A stretch of 64,000 nt of DNA from Artemia franciscana (GCF_032884065.1 NW_027062921.1:1-64000), one strand, 5' to 3'; shown: positions 57,601 to 59,845, counted from the first letter of the stretch. Numbers and translations: made by a program. Notes: generated by a model from the sequence alone, not told the origin.

Positions 57601-58969
57601 TTTATATATATTTTTTTTTTTATTCTCTGTCGCCAATTAAAAGACTCAAAATTTACCAAGTAGCTGAGTTTGTTGTAGTTGAAAGTGTTTTTATTTATTT
57701 ATTCTTGTATTCAGCCAGCAAGTAAAACACTCGGAATTTATCAAGTAGCTCGGTTAATTGTAGTCAAAAGTGTTTTTATTAAATTTTTGATGCTCAGTCA
57801 GCAAGTAAGACACATGGAATTTAAGTATTTTTTGCTTTGTAAGATAGATGAGGATGCAAAGATATATTACGAGTAAACCTTTCTTGACATAATTTTGTTC
57901 ATTCTTTACAGGCATGGAATACTCAATGGCTACTGAAAATATCAAAGAAAATATGACAGAGTCTTACCCGGGGATTTTGAATAATACCTTAATAGGCGTT
58001 CTTCAAGGTTTAAACACATCTGAAAGTAACGTTCGCATTGCACGCGCAGCTAAATCACCTCTAGAGGATGAGAGCCACCCTTTCCATGTATTTGACGACG
58101 AATGCAGACGTACTGACGTAATGGGTAGTCTTGTGCAGGACGCTAGTCCTTTCTTATTTCCTTGCACTATTGAATATTCCCTAATCTGTGCTGCTATATC
58201 TTATTTGCTTTGGAAAAATACCGGATTATCTGCTATTGATAATGATTCGAATCTACAGAGACGGTCAAGACATCACTATTCAGTAGATTGCTCTAAAGCT
58301 AATAAGGGTTTATTCTTAGGAATTTTCGTCTTTGTCGGAACAATAATTAGCTTAATCCTCTTCTTTACGCTAATTAATCGACCAGAATATGTAAGAATGG
58401 CTATCCTTCAAGTGACTTTCTCAAGACTTGCGATTTATTTTGTGACAATTATTGCGACCATAGCTGGTATGATATCAATACGAAAACTTCGCTTTGATAC
58501 AACAAAAGAGATGGAGCTGGACGATATACTGCTTGTTATGGGGCAAGTGGGTGTATTCTCTTATAATGTTTTTATAATCAATGCAGCATATAACCATAAA
58601 GACGCTGGTTTTGATACCTATCTTGGGATGGCCGCTGCCCTGTGCTCAATTATTCAAGCTGTAGCCCAAAGTTTGTTTATATTAGATGCATCTCGACGGT
58701 ATACCACGACAAAGAAGGAGCAGAAAGAGAAACCTGGACGTGAAATCGTAACTTTTCTTCTGGTATGCAATTTTGCTATGTGGTCTATAAACACTATGGA
58801 GAAATCAAAAACTGAAACGCATCCATTACAGCTTGAATTCTACGGTTCATGGCCGTGGATTGTTATTACGAATATTTCAATGCCGTTAGCTATTTTTTAT
58901 CGTTTTCATTCCACTGTCTGTTTATGTGAAATTTGGAAAAGGAGCTATAAAGTTAAGCCCGATTATTAG
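12499..58969 (+). CDS. Otop: Otopetrin-family proton channel gene, seven exons visible, 5' end missing
   Basis: Join of 12499-12631, 25575-25689, 33328-33433, 45127-45291, 49987-50147, 54218-54419 and 57912-58969. Every intron is GT...AG and the phases (2, 0, 1, 1, 0, 1 bases carried over) are consistent, giving 645 codons plus stop. Otopetrins are 12-helix dimeric channels that pass protons across the plasma membrane; they serve acid sensing and pH control. The 12 hydrophobic segments appear in order: one in exon 2, one in exon 3, one across exons 4/5, one in exon 5, one in exon 6 and seven in exon 7. Family signatures seen include [60 protein letters not shown] and [20 protein letters not shown]. 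Family membership is secure; which paralogue it is cannot be told. The start codon is not in the exons found. Introns of 3.5-12.9 kb are filled with transposons and satellites. Confidence 0.93.
12640..12925. repeat. AT-rich (ATA/TAT) low-complexity tract
   Basis: Nearly all A and T, mostly TATTATA and ATATAATA repeats, starting just after the exon 1 donor. Confidence 0.8.
12926..13765. other. Unassigned intron 1 sequence
   Basis: No coding or repeat signal beyond a poly-C run near 13671-13680. Confidence 0.3.
13766..14846. repeat. 47-bp satellite array, about 23 copies
   Basis: Unit of 47 bases built from two related parts, one ATGGTTCAATACTATGAACC plus AC, the other ATGGTTCAATACTATTACGA plus ATACC. 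Copies are almost identical; changes are seen near 14143, 14400 and 14823, and one irregular unit lies near 14265 where two ATTACGA halves follow each other. GGTTCA...TGAACC is a dyad within the unit. Confidence 0.97.
14847..16470. other. Unassigned intron 1 sequence
   Basis: No genes seen. GGGAACCACTATCTT is repeated near 15531-15585, and two related stretches (TTTACAAGAATTT...AAAGAAACCTTTTG) lie near 15330 and 15585. Confidence 0.35.
16480..18690. repeat. 360-bp tandem array with shorter internal repeats
   Basis: The text CGAACTCTTTGGCTATATCG recurs (with changes) near 16672, 17041, 17403, 17763 and 18121, giving a period close to 360 bases. Within each unit, a block of about 42 bases around AAAGTACTCTTTTTACCAG is itself repeated two to four times. 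The copies at 17415-17630 and 17775-17990 are almost the same. Divergence rises toward both ends. Confidence 0.92.
18691..19900. other. Unassigned intron 1 sequence
   Basis: AT-rich, no coding frame, no recognised repeat. Confidence 0.3.
19901..22085. repeat. 288-bp tandem array, six to seven copies
   Basis: The anchor CTTAATGAAATTTGAT (variants) occurs at about 20121, 20409, 20697, 20981, 21272, 21549 and 22010, spacing 277-291. Each unit carries GATCCGGTGAC, a G-rich tract, AAAACGCTTAGAG and AAGTCCTAGATACG. A flank with TTTGCTACTTTAGGCACTTC at 19933 is echoed at 21845 by a related sequence, so the array may be bounded by related ends. Confidence 0.9.
22086..22320. other. Left flank of Helitron
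   Basis: Ends TATATTTATATAGCGTTA directly before the element, the same text that appears uninterrupted at 25200-25217. Confidence 0.6.
22327..22355 (-). terminator. Helitron 3' terminal hairpin
   Basis: Stem of 12 pairs with one mismatch and a 3-base loop (GAA), three bases from the terminal CTAG. In Helitrons such hairpins mark where rolling-circle transposition ends. This is a transposition signal, not a transcription terminator. Confidence 0.75.
22476..22608 (+). mobile_element. Retroelement tail nested in the Helitron
   Basis: GGAAAACAGTCTTCCTTTTC, a T-run of about 58, then GTGCTGTAGCATTGGTGATT and CATGATATAT. The sister Helitron module at 23090-23115 lacks it and the one at 23686-23755 has (TA)n there, so the insertion point in the TA tract is clear. 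Confidence 0.8.
22620..22800 (-). pseudogene. Helitron helicase C-terminal fragment, copy a
   Basis: The minus strand carries text for CACAGACAATGGGACAGCGA and the preceding SRVGK(A/P)DN region of the Helitron helicase, in broken frame. About 60 residues' worth. Confidence 0.65.
23095..23300 (-). pseudogene. Helitron helicase C-terminal fragment, copy b
   Basis: The minus strand reads [20 protein letters not shown] then [16 protein letters not shown]. This is the final part of a Pif1-type helicase (motif VI-like, VACSRV), matching the larger copy at 52700-52850. No upstream helicase domains. Confidence 0.8.
23686..23755. repeat. (TA)n microsatellite within Helitron
   Basis: 70 bases of TA at the position where copy a carries a retroelement tail. 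Confidence 0.9.
23755..23960 (-). pseudogene. Helitron helicase C-terminal fragment, copy c
   Basis: The minus strand reads [20 protein letters not shown] then [13 protein letters not shown], then runs into (TA)n. Same piece as copies a and b. Confidence 0.8.
24480..24700. repeat. T-rich (TTTTTAG)-type low complexity within Helitron
   Basis: Repeats of TTTTTTAGTTTTT and similar; shorter versions occur at 22950-23030 and 24190-24240 in the other modules. Confidence 0.8.
25150..25390. repeat. Second copy of Helitron host site (paralogous empty site)
   Basis: TATATTTATATAGCGTTATA then TGCATTTTAAAGACGCGTCA, continuous, equals the two Helitron flanks (22303-22320 and 24991-25010) joined. The similarity continues through CAGTCCTTCTTAATTTCAC and GAGCCCTCCTTCAAAT. 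The host segment was tandemly duplicated, and only the first copy holds the element. Confidence 0.85.
25575..25689 (+). CDS. Otop: Otopetrin exon 2 (transmembrane helix 1)
   Basis: Encodes residues about 45-82 of the visible protein, including helix 1, with [19 protein letters not shown], very close to the family pattern (S/A)LYAKLLVVxGxAFPxxE. The acceptor is TTGCAG and the donor GTAAGT is strong. A second AG lies six bases downstream (CAGCAACAG), which could drop two residues (NS) without changing frame. The exon ends in phase 0. Confidence 0.92.
25690..26119. other. Unassigned intron 2 sequence
   Basis: AT-rich. A phrase (TTGGTAATTTT...TAATATAT...GCAGC) is repeated near 25790 and 25935. 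No coding signal. Confidence 0.3.
26120..27965 (-). pseudogene. Decayed LINE (non-LTR retrotransposon)
   Basis: On the minus strand, reading down from 27960: [19 protein letters not shown], a linker ending in [14 protein letters not shown], then [19 protein letters not shown] and [16 protein letters not shown] (RT motifs 0-2). The catalytic palm is ruined by stops and shifts (26720-27420), but remnants such as [11 protein letters not shown] (FADD box lost to LDYAQ) and [13 protein letters not shown] are visible. Last comes an intact 173-codon stretch (26192-26713) with [20 protein letters not shown] and [17 protein letters not shown], the usual C-terminal region after RT. RTE/Jockey-like; clade not fixed. 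Inactive. Confidence 0.85.
27966..29555. other. Intron 2 sequence with dispersed repeat text
   Basis: AGTCAATCTTAAGATGAACAG near 28090 recurs as AGTCAATCTTAAAATGAACA near 28771. An open frame of 113 codons at 28601-28942 matches no family I know and lies in this repeated text. Related phrases (GAAAAGTAAAGAGC) are found near 31995 and 54530. Confidence 0.4.
29556..29910. repeat. Tandem repeat of about 110 bp, three copies
   Basis: CAATGGTCCAACC, CAATGGATTACCGCTAGAGC and CAATTGATTGCCACTAAAGA start related units. Each continues with GGCTTAA(A)GGCATCCGT-like and AGCGG/GGGCATAAG text. Confidence 0.65.
30340..30780. repeat. Degenerate tandem repeat, unit about 120 bp
   Basis: Recurring blocks with GCTAAGGTATTAAG or GCTACGGTATTAAG, then GGG(A/G)AGTTGCACTACATC-like text, then GTTGTCAAAATC or GTTTTCAAAACG. 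A related block lies at 31510-31570 and again at 56635-57010. Confidence 0.6.
30781..31635. other. Unassigned intron 2 sequence
   Basis: No gene or clear repeat apart from the single related block near 31515. Confidence 0.3.
31636..31787. mobile_element. Short MITE, 15-bp inverted ends
   Basis: AGGGTCGTATCCAGG at the left and CCTGGATACGACCCT at the right, 152 bases overall, with poly-G next to each end. No clear target duplication, so the superfamily is open; the CAGGG start recalls hAT. Confidence 0.7.
31788..32985. other. Unassigned intron 2 sequence
   Basis: No coding evidence. AT-rich block near 32190-32270 and a poly-G run near 32424. Confidence 0.3.
32995..33290. repeat. (AATAT)n-like AT tract
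   Basis: Imperfect AATATAATATAAT repeats for nearly 300 bases, ending about 40 bases before exon 3. Confidence 0.85.
33328..33433 (+). CDS. Otop: Otopetrin exon 3 (transmembrane helix 2)
   Basis: Preceded by TTTTTTCCAG and followed by GTAAGTC. Encodes [19 protein letters not shown] then a basic loop ([13 protein letters not shown]). This is the second helix and first cytosolic loop of the otopetrin fold. The last base C joins GT of the next exon to give Arg. The 106-nt length keeps the frame. Confidence 0.92.
33620..34010 (+). mobile_element. tRNA-derived SINE
   Basis: A promoter-like pair is visible: TTAGCACGCTTGA (A-box-like) and GGTTCAAGTCC (B box consensus GGTTCRANNCC, at 33696-33706). 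It is followed by a hairpin around TGGCTCTGTAAGCTCAGCCA and further non-coding text with TGGGGAAGGTAAACAGGAAG. RNA polymerase III-type SINE by pattern; ends not determined. Confidence 0.6.
34011..34831. other. Unassigned intron 3 sequence
   Basis: No gene seen. The open frame on the minus strand at 34267-34527 has no recognisable motif. Confidence 0.3.
34832..35153. mobile_element. hAT-type MITE with perfect 8-bp target duplication
   Basis: Starts CAGAGGCGCCATTTGG and ends CCAAATGGCGCCTCTG, a perfect 16-base inverted pair. TATTTGGC flanks both sides (34824-34831, 35154-35161). Internal text (GGGTGGGCAAATGCCCACCC, TTACCTGACGACCCTTGG) matches the element at 10760 in reverse. No transposase. 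Confidence 0.95.
35162..38745. other. Unassigned intron 3 sequence
   Basis: AT-rich. A short phrase (TACTTATGAAGTTTT-like) recurs four times at 37240-37320. TAATAAATAA low complexity at 35755-35830. Near 36500, GGCATTGGATGCTCTTTAC resembles GGCATGGACTGCTCTTTA of the 360-bp array. No coding exon detected. Confidence 0.35.
38746..39335 (+). repeat. Family R1 copy
   Basis: TAGTTCTTGGTATCGAACTG palindrome remnant, then GTAAGGAGCGACTTGG. Further R1 text: TTTTCCCAGGGATGATCGTG, AGTGACCAAAAAGATTGGAG and GGACATTT-type ends. Degenerate. Confidence 0.65.
39345..39645. repeat. Foldback element, diverged
   Basis: Left arm CAACTGAAAGTAAGGAGC...GAATAGAAATTATTCCGTAT, right arm ...TATATACAGAATAATTTCGG and TACTCCTTACTTTC, around a loop of about 100 bases. 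Confidence 0.7.
39665..40245 (+). repeat. Family R1 copy
   Basis: Starts with the exact palindrome CAGTTCGTAGTAACGAACTG (39669-39688), then GAGCGACTCGACCCAATAG and GCATATCAGAGATTCC as in other R1 copies. Confidence 0.7.
40465..40770. repeat. Foldback element, diverged
   Basis: Arms with TATGAGGGGGTAAACC and GGGGGCATCCCCCTCATATG, plus AAAAGTAAGGATCATTATTG against AAAAATGATCCTTATTTTTG. Confidence 0.65.
41110..41890 (-). repeat. Family R1 copy, reverse orientation
   Basis: GTTGCTCCTTACTTTTAGTT at the left, GGTCATTTAAAAAGGGTCCT and ATTGGTTCGATACGATTACC in the middle, and AAATCACTCCTTACTTACAG near 41850. Confidence 0.6.
42067..42122. repeat. (TA)n microsatellite
   Basis: About 56 bases of TA lying directly at the 3' end of the retroelement on the minus strand. 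Confidence 0.95.
42123..43995 (-). mobile_element. Penelope-like retroelement, 5'-truncated
   Basis: On the minus strand: an open reverse transcriptase frame (43995-42877), about 650 bases of 3' UTR with CTGATGAGCCCTTATGTTG and GACTGCCTGTCCATGGATTA, a T-run near 42185-42214, then GCATTGGTGATTTCTC and TA repeats. Three shorter copies of this tail occur at 1706, 2769 and 22476. The 5' end lies near 44000. No second ORF or LTR seen. Confidence 0.75.
42877..43995 (-). CDS. Reverse transcriptase, Penelope-like, no endonuclease domain
   Basis: An open frame of 372 codons without its N-terminus; an in-frame TAA lies at 43996-43998. Order: [20 protein letters not shown] (thumb-side motif found in Penelope-like RTs), then [11 protein letters not shown] (motif A, catalytic Asp), [20 protein letters not shown] (motif B), RYLDDILVL (motif C, the Asp pair), HFLDLNINI and [20 protein letters not shown]. 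All three catalytic aspartates are present. It stops shortly after the RT region (LEEIFN), with none of the Cys/His or GIY-YIG nuclease seen in canonical Penelope elements. Similar nuclease-free RTs are common in cnidarian and other invertebrate genomes. Clade assignment is by motif memory only. Confidence 0.8.
   Translation of the reverse strand, partial: EFPFLYWTVKFHKNPPKPRFIAGAAKCPTHIAATDLSLILKEIVNKLKTYCSGIKKFSNFNPYWSVNNSLQVIDSLTMVSAKRIESFDFATMYTNLSLNLVFDNLKTVIKKSFLLSSKRFLKIDSYNKKAIWTNCFNTTVNLRCYSLDMIFELLEFVLYNTYIRFGGDLYKQIMGIPMGGNASPFIADLFLSQLEYKYMMDKNNPINLKHALSNNKRYLDDILVLNCKDFIDISKNIYPSELILEPSHGAGHEDHFLDLNINICDNNKLSFKMYNKTDDFDFEVISFPFPESNIHSNITYSAFFSQLLRYARICSNYIDFKNRCKILSQKLISRGFSAKKLTWQFKKISFHYNELLNKYQKNYLEILEEIFN
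43996..44299. other. Unassigned intron 3 sequence
   Basis: No motif seen upstream of the RT stop or before the next LINE fragment. Confidence 0.3.
44300..44976 (+). pseudogene. LINE C-terminal fragment with 3' tail
   Basis: Open for 116 codons: [19 protein letters not shown], then [20 protein letters not shown] and [14 protein letters not shown]. KYLGxxV and LL(F)RAYCxPLYG are the usual post-RT signatures of CR1/Jockey-type LINEs. After the stop a 3' UTR runs to a TAAATAAATAAATGAATAAA tail. 5' truncated; dead on arrival. Confidence 0.75.
45127..45291 (+). CDS. Otop: Otopetrin exon 4 (Ser/Arg-rich cytosolic loop, start of helix 3)
   Basis: Acceptor TTTCAG, donor GTAAGT. It first encodes a loop with several RxxS-type sites ([20 protein letters not shown]), then [19 protein letters not shown], which leads into helix 3. 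Arthropod otopetrins usually carry a variable insert in this loop, and the basic-Ser pattern would suit kinase regulation, which is inference. The final G pairs with CC of the next exon to encode Ala. Confidence 0.9.
45292..45639. other. Unassigned intron 4 start
   Basis: No repeats or coding seen between exon 4 and the satellite. Confidence 0.3.
45640..47215. repeat. 75-bp satellite, about 20 copies, with 440-bp higher-order period
   Basis: Consensus-like unit GCAGCACCATCACTGCATAA, GAGAAAGTAAACCTAAATAA, TTTGTCAATTTTTCCCTGAT, CAGCACAAACATCA. Copies start near 45719, 45793, 45865, 45939 and onward. The variant ATTAGCCG recurs at 45861 and 46302, and GCACAATTATCAGCAACACC at 46001 and 46441. 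A block of six monomers (about 440 bp) is therefore duplicated at the left end; the right end is monomeric. Confidence 0.92.
47290..47715. repeat. Family R1 and foldback copy
   Basis: TTTCCATTGAGGAGGTTTCG and CAACTGAAAGTAAGGAGTAG, then foldback arms around TACCTCGCTCTTTACGCAAA and its counterpart, ending TTTGTTTTAAGTTTTAATGT. Confidence 0.65.
47716..49580. other. Unassigned intron 4 sequence
   Basis: No coding family or repeat recognised. Poly-G run near 49394-49405. Confidence 0.3.
49581..49722. repeat. (CT)n microsatellite
   Basis: About 140 bases of nearly pure CT with a short poly-C interruption near 49692. It lies about 265 bases upstream of exon 5. Confidence 0.95.
49987..50147 (+). 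CDS. Otop: Otopetrin exon 5 (helices 3 and 4)
   Basis: Encodes [19 protein letters not shown], a polar loop with a Cys (SSSKCHN), then helix 4 ([20 protein letters not shown]). The Glu of LEFGQ sits within helix 3, where the family keeps an acidic residue. Acceptor TTTTTAG and donor GTAAGT flank it. A 140-bp (TC)n tract lies about 260 bases upstream. Ends in phase 0. Confidence 0.92.
50148..50619. other. Unassigned intron 5 start
   Basis: No gene or repeat recognised between the exon 5 donor and the Helitron relic. Confidence 0.3.
50620..52891 (+). pseudogene. Decayed Helitron helicase gene, 5'-truncated
   Basis: Frames in order: [20 protein letters not shown] then [20 protein letters not shown] (region between Rep and helicase, 50624-50964); [20 protein letters not shown] (51020-51313); the helicase start with [20 protein letters not shown] (Walker A, where the usual Lys of GKT is Glu) at 51403-51657; [18 protein letters not shown] and [13 protein letters not shown] (motifs II and III) at 51801-52013; and an open 284-codon part (52037-52891) ending [17 protein letters not shown] and [20 protein letters not shown] (motifs V/VI). 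Stops and frameshifts separate the blocks. The HUH replication initiator is absent. Pif1-type Helitron helicase by established family motifs; inactive. Confidence 0.9.
52892..53175 (+). mobile_element. Helitron 3' region with a nested second copy
   Basis: After the helicase stop, a Helitron 5'-type end (TCTATCTATCTAAATTAAAA then TAAGTTGTATG, from about 52869) is followed by another copy of the helicase tail text (CACAGACAATGGGACAGCGA at 52981) and the GTGGGACACAGGGACACAAC tail with poly-G. The expected final hairpin and CTAG are missing. Confidence 0.7.
53176..53725. repeat. Family R3 copy (two monomers)
   Basis: Text CCAGGGCACTTCGTATAGA, CATAAGGTTTTTATAGAAAG and GGAGGGCAGC, the same family as 54640-56540. 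Confidence 0.8.
53733..53945 (+). mobile_element. tRNA-derived SINE
   Basis: tRNA-like 67-base head: GCGATGATG, TAGTGGGTAAAGC (A box), GGTTCAATGCC (B box, at 53791-53801), then GTGTCGC, whose TCGC pairs with the leading GCGA. It is too short and diverged for a working tRNA, and a non-tRNA body follows. Confidence 0.6.
54218..54419 (+). CDS. Otop: Otopetrin exon 6 (helix 5 and following loop)
   Basis: Begins directly after ATTTTAG with ATG, which here is an internal Met because the frame joins SSK of exon 5 to [16 protein letters not shown]. It contains the strongly conserved [15 protein letters not shown] and [11 protein letters not shown], the helix 5 signature with its Glu and His. The last base G plus GC of exon 7 makes Gly. 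The donor is GTATGT. The reading frame stays open to 54580, but that continuation is intronic because the family sequence stops matching at the donor. Confidence 0.93.
54640..56545. repeat. Family R3 tandem array, monomer about 275 bp, higher-order about 820 bp
   Basis: Anchor AAGGTTTTTATAGAA (variants) near 54978, 55166, 55443, 55721, 55988 and 56263. Variants with ACTTTAGAG follow the anchor at 55166 and 55988; those with (T)TCAGATGGG follow at 55443 and 56263. Three monomers therefore form a repeat of about 820 bases. The left end starts with a hairpin (GGCAGCGCAATAGCGCTGCC, 54641-54660). Confidence 0.85.
56560..57170. repeat. Degenerate repeat related to 30.3-30.8 kb
   Basis: Two blocks with TTGAACTACATCAAAGCATG, GTCAAAAGGACGTAACTCAG and AACTACGTCAAAACAGTTAT. 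Confidence 0.6.
57171..57639. other. Unassigned intron 6 sequence
   Basis: Holds a remnant of the foldback right arm (TTTTTAAGTTTTAATGCCGC, near 57553). Otherwise nothing recognised. Confidence 0.35.
57640..57815. repeat. Approximate 90-bp duplication before last exon
   Basis: TTTACCAAGTAGCTGAGTTT...AAAGTGTTTTTATTTA is followed by a related TTTATCAAGTAGCTCGGTTA...AAAGTGTTTTTATTAA, with CAGCCAGCAAGTAAAACACT and CAGTCAGCAAGTAAGACACA. Confidence 0.75.
57912..58969 (+). CDS. Otop: Otopetrin terminal exon 7 (helices 6-12)
   Basis: Acceptor TTCTTTACAG, then 352 codons including the stop. The start is an extracellular loop with three N-glycosylation sequons (NMT, NNT, NTS). Next come [17 protein letters not shown] and helix 6 ([16 protein letters not shown]), helix 7 ([20 protein letters not shown]), helix 8 (near [17 protein letters not shown]), helix 9 ([18 protein letters not shown]), helix 10 ([16 protein letters not shown]), a lysine-rich linker, helix 11 ([16 protein letters not shown]) and helix 12 ([18 protein letters not shown]), ending [16 protein letters not shown]. 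This is the standard C-terminal otopetrin domain and looks full length and undamaged. Decayed partial copies of its last 180 bases follow in tandem. Confidence 0.96.

Positions 58970-59845: not shown

Follow-up and report, generated by a model that had tools for sequence, protein, structure and literature searches.

The locus and its tandem array

The 64-kb stretch of Artemia franciscana DNA analyzed here (the window) carries a gene for an OtopLc-like proton channel of 597 amino acids. Positions 57911-58966 correspond to the last 352 residues of this protein with 100% identity (tblastn, P0001 residues 246-597), and the Pfam Otopetrin match (PF03189, E 1.1e-110) confirms the original prediction that the gene is an otopetrin. 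The protein match is perfect up to the stop codon, where the database protein also terminates. The first and intact unit is supported as the working end of the gene, as had been proposed. Behind this stop lie five degenerate, head-to-tail copies of the tail of the exon. The features are as follows:

~25588-25689, 33328-33435, 45129-45290, 49986-50147, 54218-54424, + strand: exons 1-5 of the OtopLc-like gene (tblastn of P0001), edges approximate within the span 25588..54424
57911..58969, + strand: last coding exon, start approximate (tblastn of P0001, Pfam Otopetrin)
58967-58969, + strand: stop codon of the OtopLc-like gene
58801..58974, + strand: ancestral unit, spanning roughly the final 55 codons, the stop codon and 5 bases of 3′ flank; starts at the left homology limit, and the same text restarts at 58975
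58971..59152, + strand: copy 1, 182 nt, 63% identical to the exon; cut for analysis, boundaries placed by eye and uncertain by a few bases
59153..59318, + strand: copy 2, 166 nt, 64% to the exon and 79% to copy 1
59319..59483, + strand: copy 3, 165 nt, 70% to the exon and 76% to copy 4; left end unalignable
59484..59660, + strand: copy 4, 177 nt, 69% to the exon
59661..59822, + strand: copy 5, 67% to the exon; right end eroded, homology to ~59822 (analyzed as 59661-59845)
59054..59059, + strand: ATTAAA, candidate poly(A) signal in copy 1 with a T/GT-rich stretch behind it (motif scan only)

A 44-nt core is common to all six units, with starts at 58921, 59096, 59269, 59434, 59611, and 59787 (steps of 175, 173, 165, 177, and 176), and the copy cores match the exon core with 70-84% identity. 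TRF splits the array into two parts, one with a period of 182 (2.2 copies, 58891-59276) and the other with a period of 177 (2.8 copies, 59324-59817). The self-identity of 58797-59850 is greatest at an offset of 177 (0.420; mean 0.284, SD 0.023 for offsets 20-599). Local alignments of the exon unit with copies 1-5 yield z scores of 28.5, 17.2, 35.6, 32.7, and 31.6, each relative to 300 dinucleotide shuffles, whereas three control stretches score at chance level (−0.2 and 0.8 for two downstream, −1.4 for one upstream). Whole-unit identity to the exon unit is 0.633-0.697, and the copies are 61.5-78.8% alike among themselves.

The predicted degenerate tandem copies behind the stop are therefore real, and the self-comparison that had been proposed as a check reveals both significant exon-copy alignments and periodic spacing. 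The limits require adjustment. Homology begins at ~58801, which is 10 bases upstream of the ACTGAAACGCATCC text at which the unit was said to start, and it disappears near 59822 rather than at 59845. The count of "about five" proves to be exactly five downstream copies; no further copy was found in the 64-kb window. A tblastn search with P0001 likewise gave no second copy of exons 1-5 (best other match E 0.36, low-complexity), so in this window the array behind the last exon is the only place where P0001 sequence recurs.

Copies drift while the exon is constrained

All five copies have stops in all three forward frames. Identity between exon and copies is 0.699, 0.720, and 0.585 at the three codon positions, with differences mainly at third positions, whereas identity between copies is level (0.684, 0.670, 0.691). 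Permutation gives p 0.003 for this contrast (2000 shuffles), p 0.0145 for the exon-copy drop alone, and p 0.67 for the copy-copy values. The contrast reverses in both shifted frames, and with five alignment settings (the main one among them) it was reached in 0 to 4 of 500 shuffles. Separate pairwise alignments give codon-position identities of 0.791, 0.814, and 0.719. Branch lengths estimated separately for codon positions are noisy: The exon branch measures 0.11 at positions 1+2 versus 0.39 at position 3, but position-3 branches are also longer for the tip of copy 1 (0.099 versus 0.228) and the stem of copies 3-5 (0.007 versus 0.175). Only exon-copy differences concentrate at third positions: The exon is under purifying selection, and the copies, free of coding constraint, drift, as was originally noted. 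Among the columns that are invariant in all five copies, clustering slightly exceeds chance (longest run 9, p 0.019-0.043; clustering p 0.014-0.047; single-test figures for a weak effect), which could stem from weak constraint or gene conversion, or else from uneven alignment.

Possible roles of the array

Since copy 1 adjoins the stop, the array likely affects the 3′ UTR, albeit in a narrow sense: The bases right behind the stop belong to this copy. Judging from this arrangement, any 3′ UTR exceeding a few bases must start in copy 1. It is improbable, though the best of the alternatives, that the repeats are transcribed and act as a regulatory element, in the 3′ UTR or downstream, through sites (for example, the run around AAAACGCAC) that influence poly(A) choice or the stability of the message. 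The start of any UTR in copy 1, the mild clustering of invariant columns, and the candidate ATTAAA, with no AATAAA for 2.5 kb past the stop (first at 61521; motif scan), are consistent with such a role. The predicted fold of the array is also more stable than those of shuffles (z −4.09; −3.33 in a second run) and beats nine of 10 control stretches, of which one is about equal (−3.25) and eight are weaker; the remaining control is stronger (−7.43). However, the clustering is weak, the covariation term is unfavorable (+1.28) when the five copies are folded to a consensus, and a double change that keeps pairing occurs in just three of 28 pairs. Furthermore, no Rfam match reaches the gathering score within 56000-62000, and the copies differ mutually at ~21-39% of sites. 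The array probably lacks a function.

The suggestion that the copies provide alternative coding 3′ ends, as duplicated terminal exons, is very improbable. Stretches of the copies are still recognized at the protein level (tblastn, E 5e-4 to 0.09), but this reading is unsupported because every forward frame of every copy has stops. In addition, codon-position signal is absent among the copies, the database protein stops at the exon stop, and the duplicated unit starts within the exon and so brought along no acceptor site of its own.

Origin of the array

Repeat-rich assemblies can contain collapsed or expanded repeats. Here such an artefact is very improbable, given that divergence among the copies is far above usual assembly error.

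The C-terminal stretch is covered by 117 of 120 aligned otopetrin relatives (drawn from 515 found), among which W561, P570, and L571 are conserved at 1.00, and also by the other Artemia otopetrin, P0087. Because of this coverage, the exon is, on comparative grounds, the ancestral form and the source of the copies, as originally proposed. The reverse, in which the gene took over its end from a repeat that already existed, is logically possible with any exon-repeat homology, but nothing was found in its favor and the presence of this old otopetrin sequence in the 117 relatives and P0087 refutes it.

A 6-nt insertion is visible in copies 1, 2, 4, and 5 and in none of the 117 relatives; the informative stretch is missing from copy 3. 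Separate pairwise alignments place a 6- or 7-nt insertion in copies 1, 2, and 4, and position it otherwise in copy 5. Since this insertion is shared by four of five copies, it suggests that the exon seeded the array once and that one broken copy was amplified. Bootstrap support is 100 for the clade of copies 1 and 2 and only 63 for that of copies 3-5.

Our preferred explanation, to which we assign a probability of about 0.9, is that duplication, decay of the copy, and amplification left a drifting array beside a selected exon. A short tandem duplication would have placed about the last 55 codons and the stop directly behind the gene end. Because it lay behind the stop, the downstream copy would have been noncoding from birth, and it could then have gained the insertion and frame changes. 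We infer that unequal crossing-over or replication slippage amplified this broken copy; adjacent copies are the most closely related (copies 1 and 2; copies 3, 4, and 5). What is now present is a decayed minisatellite-like array, with the exon kept intact by selection.

Minisatellites and young satellites derived from unique sequence have head-to-tail units in which adjacent units resemble each other most, the pattern expected from unequal crossing-over or slippage. The otopetrin copies share both properties. In contrast, their array comprises just five copies at a single site in the window, its source is a coding unit that persists at its original position, and it is not homogenized, since the copies are so unlike. 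The term "satellite-like" was an overstatement for five diverged copies with no more in the window.

The array appears to be a neat but unremarkable instance of partial tandem duplication. In a review table (PMC3449122), AFPIII, which derives from sialic acid synthase, is entered as a partial duplication in a tandem array and AFGP as a partial duplication with internal amplification. As in these table entries, only part of a gene was copied, beside its source. Unlike those examples, whose copies became new genes, the copies here comprise a coding tail only, behind the stop, and are decayed.

Birth of tandem arrays is common in this window, since 12 array regions, hand-picked from TRF output, cover 8301 bases (13%). 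Other arrays (e.g., 45650-47170, 20045-21635, and 57634-57823, two of the three within introns of the OtopLc-like gene) are of the same local type, but only the otopetrin-tail array repeats P0001 sequence.

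Source gene and layout of the array

The repeated sequence derives from an otopetrin gene. The reading frame that ends at position 58966 is 100% identical to residues 246–597 of the 597-residue protein P0001 ('proton channel OtopLc-like [Artemia franciscana]'), and the remainder of this protein is encoded in five upstream pieces located between 25588 and 54424. A Pfam search matches residues 43–338 of the 358-residue frame to Otopetrin (PF03189, E = 1.1e-110), and the match spans positions 130–434 of the 434-position profile, including its end. All six distinct PDB sequences that match the gene are named otopetrin or OTOP protein.

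The repeat unit starts at about position 58801, inside the last exon, and includes approximately the last 55 codons, the stop codon, and five additional bases. Five degenerate copies follow directly. The pieces analyzed, whose edges were set by eye, are as follows:

58801–58974, forward strand: exon unit with the end of the coding sequence (174 nt)
58971–59152, forward strand: copy c1 (182 nt), identity to the exon 0.633
59153–59318, forward strand: copy c2 (166 nt), identity 0.644
59319–59483, forward strand: copy c3 (165 nt), identity 0.697
59484–59660, forward strand: copy c4 (177 nt), identity 0.694
59661–59845, forward strand: copy c5 (185 nt, extending as padding past the end of its homology), identity 0.665

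A 44-nt core is present six times, at steps of 175, 173, 165, 177, and 176 nt. When aligned to the exon unit, all five copies score 17–36 SD above the mean of their dinucleotide shuffles (300 each), and three control stretches range from −1.4 to 0.8 SD. These data bear out the original prediction, which called for about five degenerate copies after the stop codon that are periodically homologous to the exon end. No sixth or later copy was found in the window, where the other blastn matches have E values of 0.37 or worse. Likewise, a tblastn search of the window with P0001 did not reveal repeats of any other exon.

The copies are both contiguous with and homologous to a part of the gene, as in a tandem partial gene duplication. 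A satellite would be a large homogenized array or would occupy many genomic loci; five diverged copies are seen here, and none further within the window. The conclusion that the array is an ordinary partial tandem duplication with decay is well supported.

Direction, founder, and age of the duplication

Among the 120 relatives listed (of 515 found), 117 cover the C-terminal stretch, which is mostly well conserved, and the exon is therefore considered ancestral. Copies c1, c2, c4, and c5 have six extra bases between the landmarks GAAATC and AAACGC, and c3 is without its left end. None of the 117 relatives that cover the stretch carries an insertion at this site. This absence and the coverage of the stretch in relatives identify the gene part as ancestral and the copies as derived. 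In separate pairwise alignments, c1, c2, and c4 carry an insertion of 6 or 7 nt, and c5 is aligned otherwise. Moreover, one or more exon bases near 58911–58917 are missing from all five copies in the multi-copy alignment. The insertion and this loss suggest that the copies descend from one broken founder.

A tree of the sequences groups c1 with c2 (bootstrap value of 100% in 200 replicates) and, weakly, c3 through c5 (63%). By these groupings, the closest relatives are therefore neighbors. The copy tips lie 0.21–0.32 substitutions per site away from the central node. A generic arthropod mutation rate was used for dating the duplication. As a rough estimate, the tip distances and this rate probably place the duplication tens of millions of years ago, and several Artemia species may have it in common.

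Constraint on the exon and drift of the copies

Identity between copies is flat over codon positions 1, 2, and 3 (0.684, 0.670, and 0.691; 525, 549, and 534 comparisons), whereas identity between exon and copies falls at the third position (0.699, 0.720, and 0.585; 272, 282, and 275 comparisons). The permutation p value is 0.003 for this contrast (2000 shuffles), 0.0145 for the exon–copy drop by itself, and 0.67 for the copy–copy values. The contrast reverses sign when the frame is moved by one or two bases, and holds in five alignment settings, including the main one (p = 0.000–0.008, 500 shuffles each). Separate pairwise alignments yield exon–copy identities of 0.791, 0.814, and 0.719 for the three positions.

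On a fixed tree, the exon branch measures 0.111 at positions 1 and 2 versus 0.394 at position 3, although it also includes changes of the founder that preceded amplification because the tree is unrooted. Position 3, whose branch lengths are based on about 55 columns, is shorter in four of the five copy tips. It is longer at the tip of c1 (0.099 versus 0.228) and on the stem of c3–c5 (0.007 versus 0.175). We read this overall pattern as purifying selection on the exon, with none detectable on the copies.

Each of the five copies has stops in all three forward frames. Together with the lack of codon-position bias among them, this marks the copies as noncoding and decayed, or pseudogene-like. Thus, the expectation that the working gene end is intact while the copies carry stops and drift was correct. 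The further proposal that the copies serve as alternative terminal coding exons is rejected, since they maintain no open frame and show no codon-position signal.

A selected exon lies beside five unconstrained descendants, which allows constraint to be compared with drift at a single locus. The interest of the array is modest and lies chiefly in this natural comparison. The copies could be used as a local clock, and probes or reads for the 3′ end of the gene may partially match its own flank. The array reveals no new mechanism.

The 3′ end of the gene and possible function of the copies

Because no more than about five bases separate the stop codon from the start of copy c1, a normal 3′ UTR, whatever its extent, would have to begin in this copy. 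A scan of 58961–61000 identified ATTAAA at 59054 (c1), a candidate poly(A) signal, and at 59504 (c4), and the nearest AATAAA after the stop codon is at 61521.

Of 150 gap-free columns in the copies, 62–66 are invariant, with a longest run of 9 and mild clustering (p = 0.019–0.043 for the run and 0.014–0.047 for clustering, uncorrected for multiple tests). The clustering may argue against a purely neutral reading. It is a hint only, because the p values are uncorrected and poorly aligned parts depress apparent conservation elsewhere. The region 58967–59850 is predicted to fold more strongly than shuffled sequences (z = −4.09, or −3.33 with other shuffles; −1.8 for the other strand). Among ten control stretches from the window, one has a z value of −7.43, one −3.25, and eight between −2.06 and −0.06. 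The covariation term of the consensus fold, based on only five sequences, is unfavorable (+1.28), and a search of 56000–62000 gave no Rfam match at gathering score. Strong folding is thus not peculiar to the array within the window, although the array may contain a structured RNA element.

A reading in which one of the decayed coding copies supplies both the 3′ UTR and the poly(A) signal of the gene, and the repeated run around AAAACGCAC has been kept for a function there, is very improbable. If true, a coding tail would have been reused as a regulatory repeat.

Repeat background and other features of the window

Twelve array regions, hand-picked from the TRF table with the otopetrin array included and simple repeats excluded, comprise 8301 bases, or 13.0% of the window. 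Repeat content is given as 58% in one published assembly (PMC8406910) and as 67.26% in another (PMC11492255). Given these values, array birth is common here, and the presumed unusual part of the otopetrin array is the coding end inside its repeat unit. The titles and abstract openings surveyed in the open-licence PMC literature include no report of this array or of any otopetrin tail array. The main text of an Artemia Iso-Seq paper (PMC8465105) has zero occurrences of otopetrin, UTR, or polyadenylation. A section on piRNA-targeted genes in Drosophila virilis names the otopetrin gene OtopLb (PMC12072073).

Several other features were observed. An open frame of 372 codons on the minus strand (42877–43995), which we take by eye to resemble reverse transcriptase, matched no Pfam family. 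The intron before exon 5 holds fragments of a PIF1-like helicase in two overlapping frames (51669–52888; PF05970, E = 3e-21; PF21530, E = 5.9e-18), perhaps a decayed Helitron-type element. A very stable RNA fold is predicted for 39900–40783, the fold control with the z value of −7.43.

Repeats are also present elsewhere. The intron after exon 3 carries about 21 copies of a 74-nt repeat (45650–47170), for which TRF also gives periods of 147 and 440 nt, and the intron immediately before the last exon carries 2.3 copies of an 85-nt unit (57634–57823). Downstream of the array, a 60-nt segment occurs twice, 214 bases apart, with 75% identity (60005–60064 and 60219–60278). Three forward frames and one reverse frame are open through most of a 27-nt, or 9-codon, repeat of 9.2 copies (63344–63588), which may be repetitive coding sequence.
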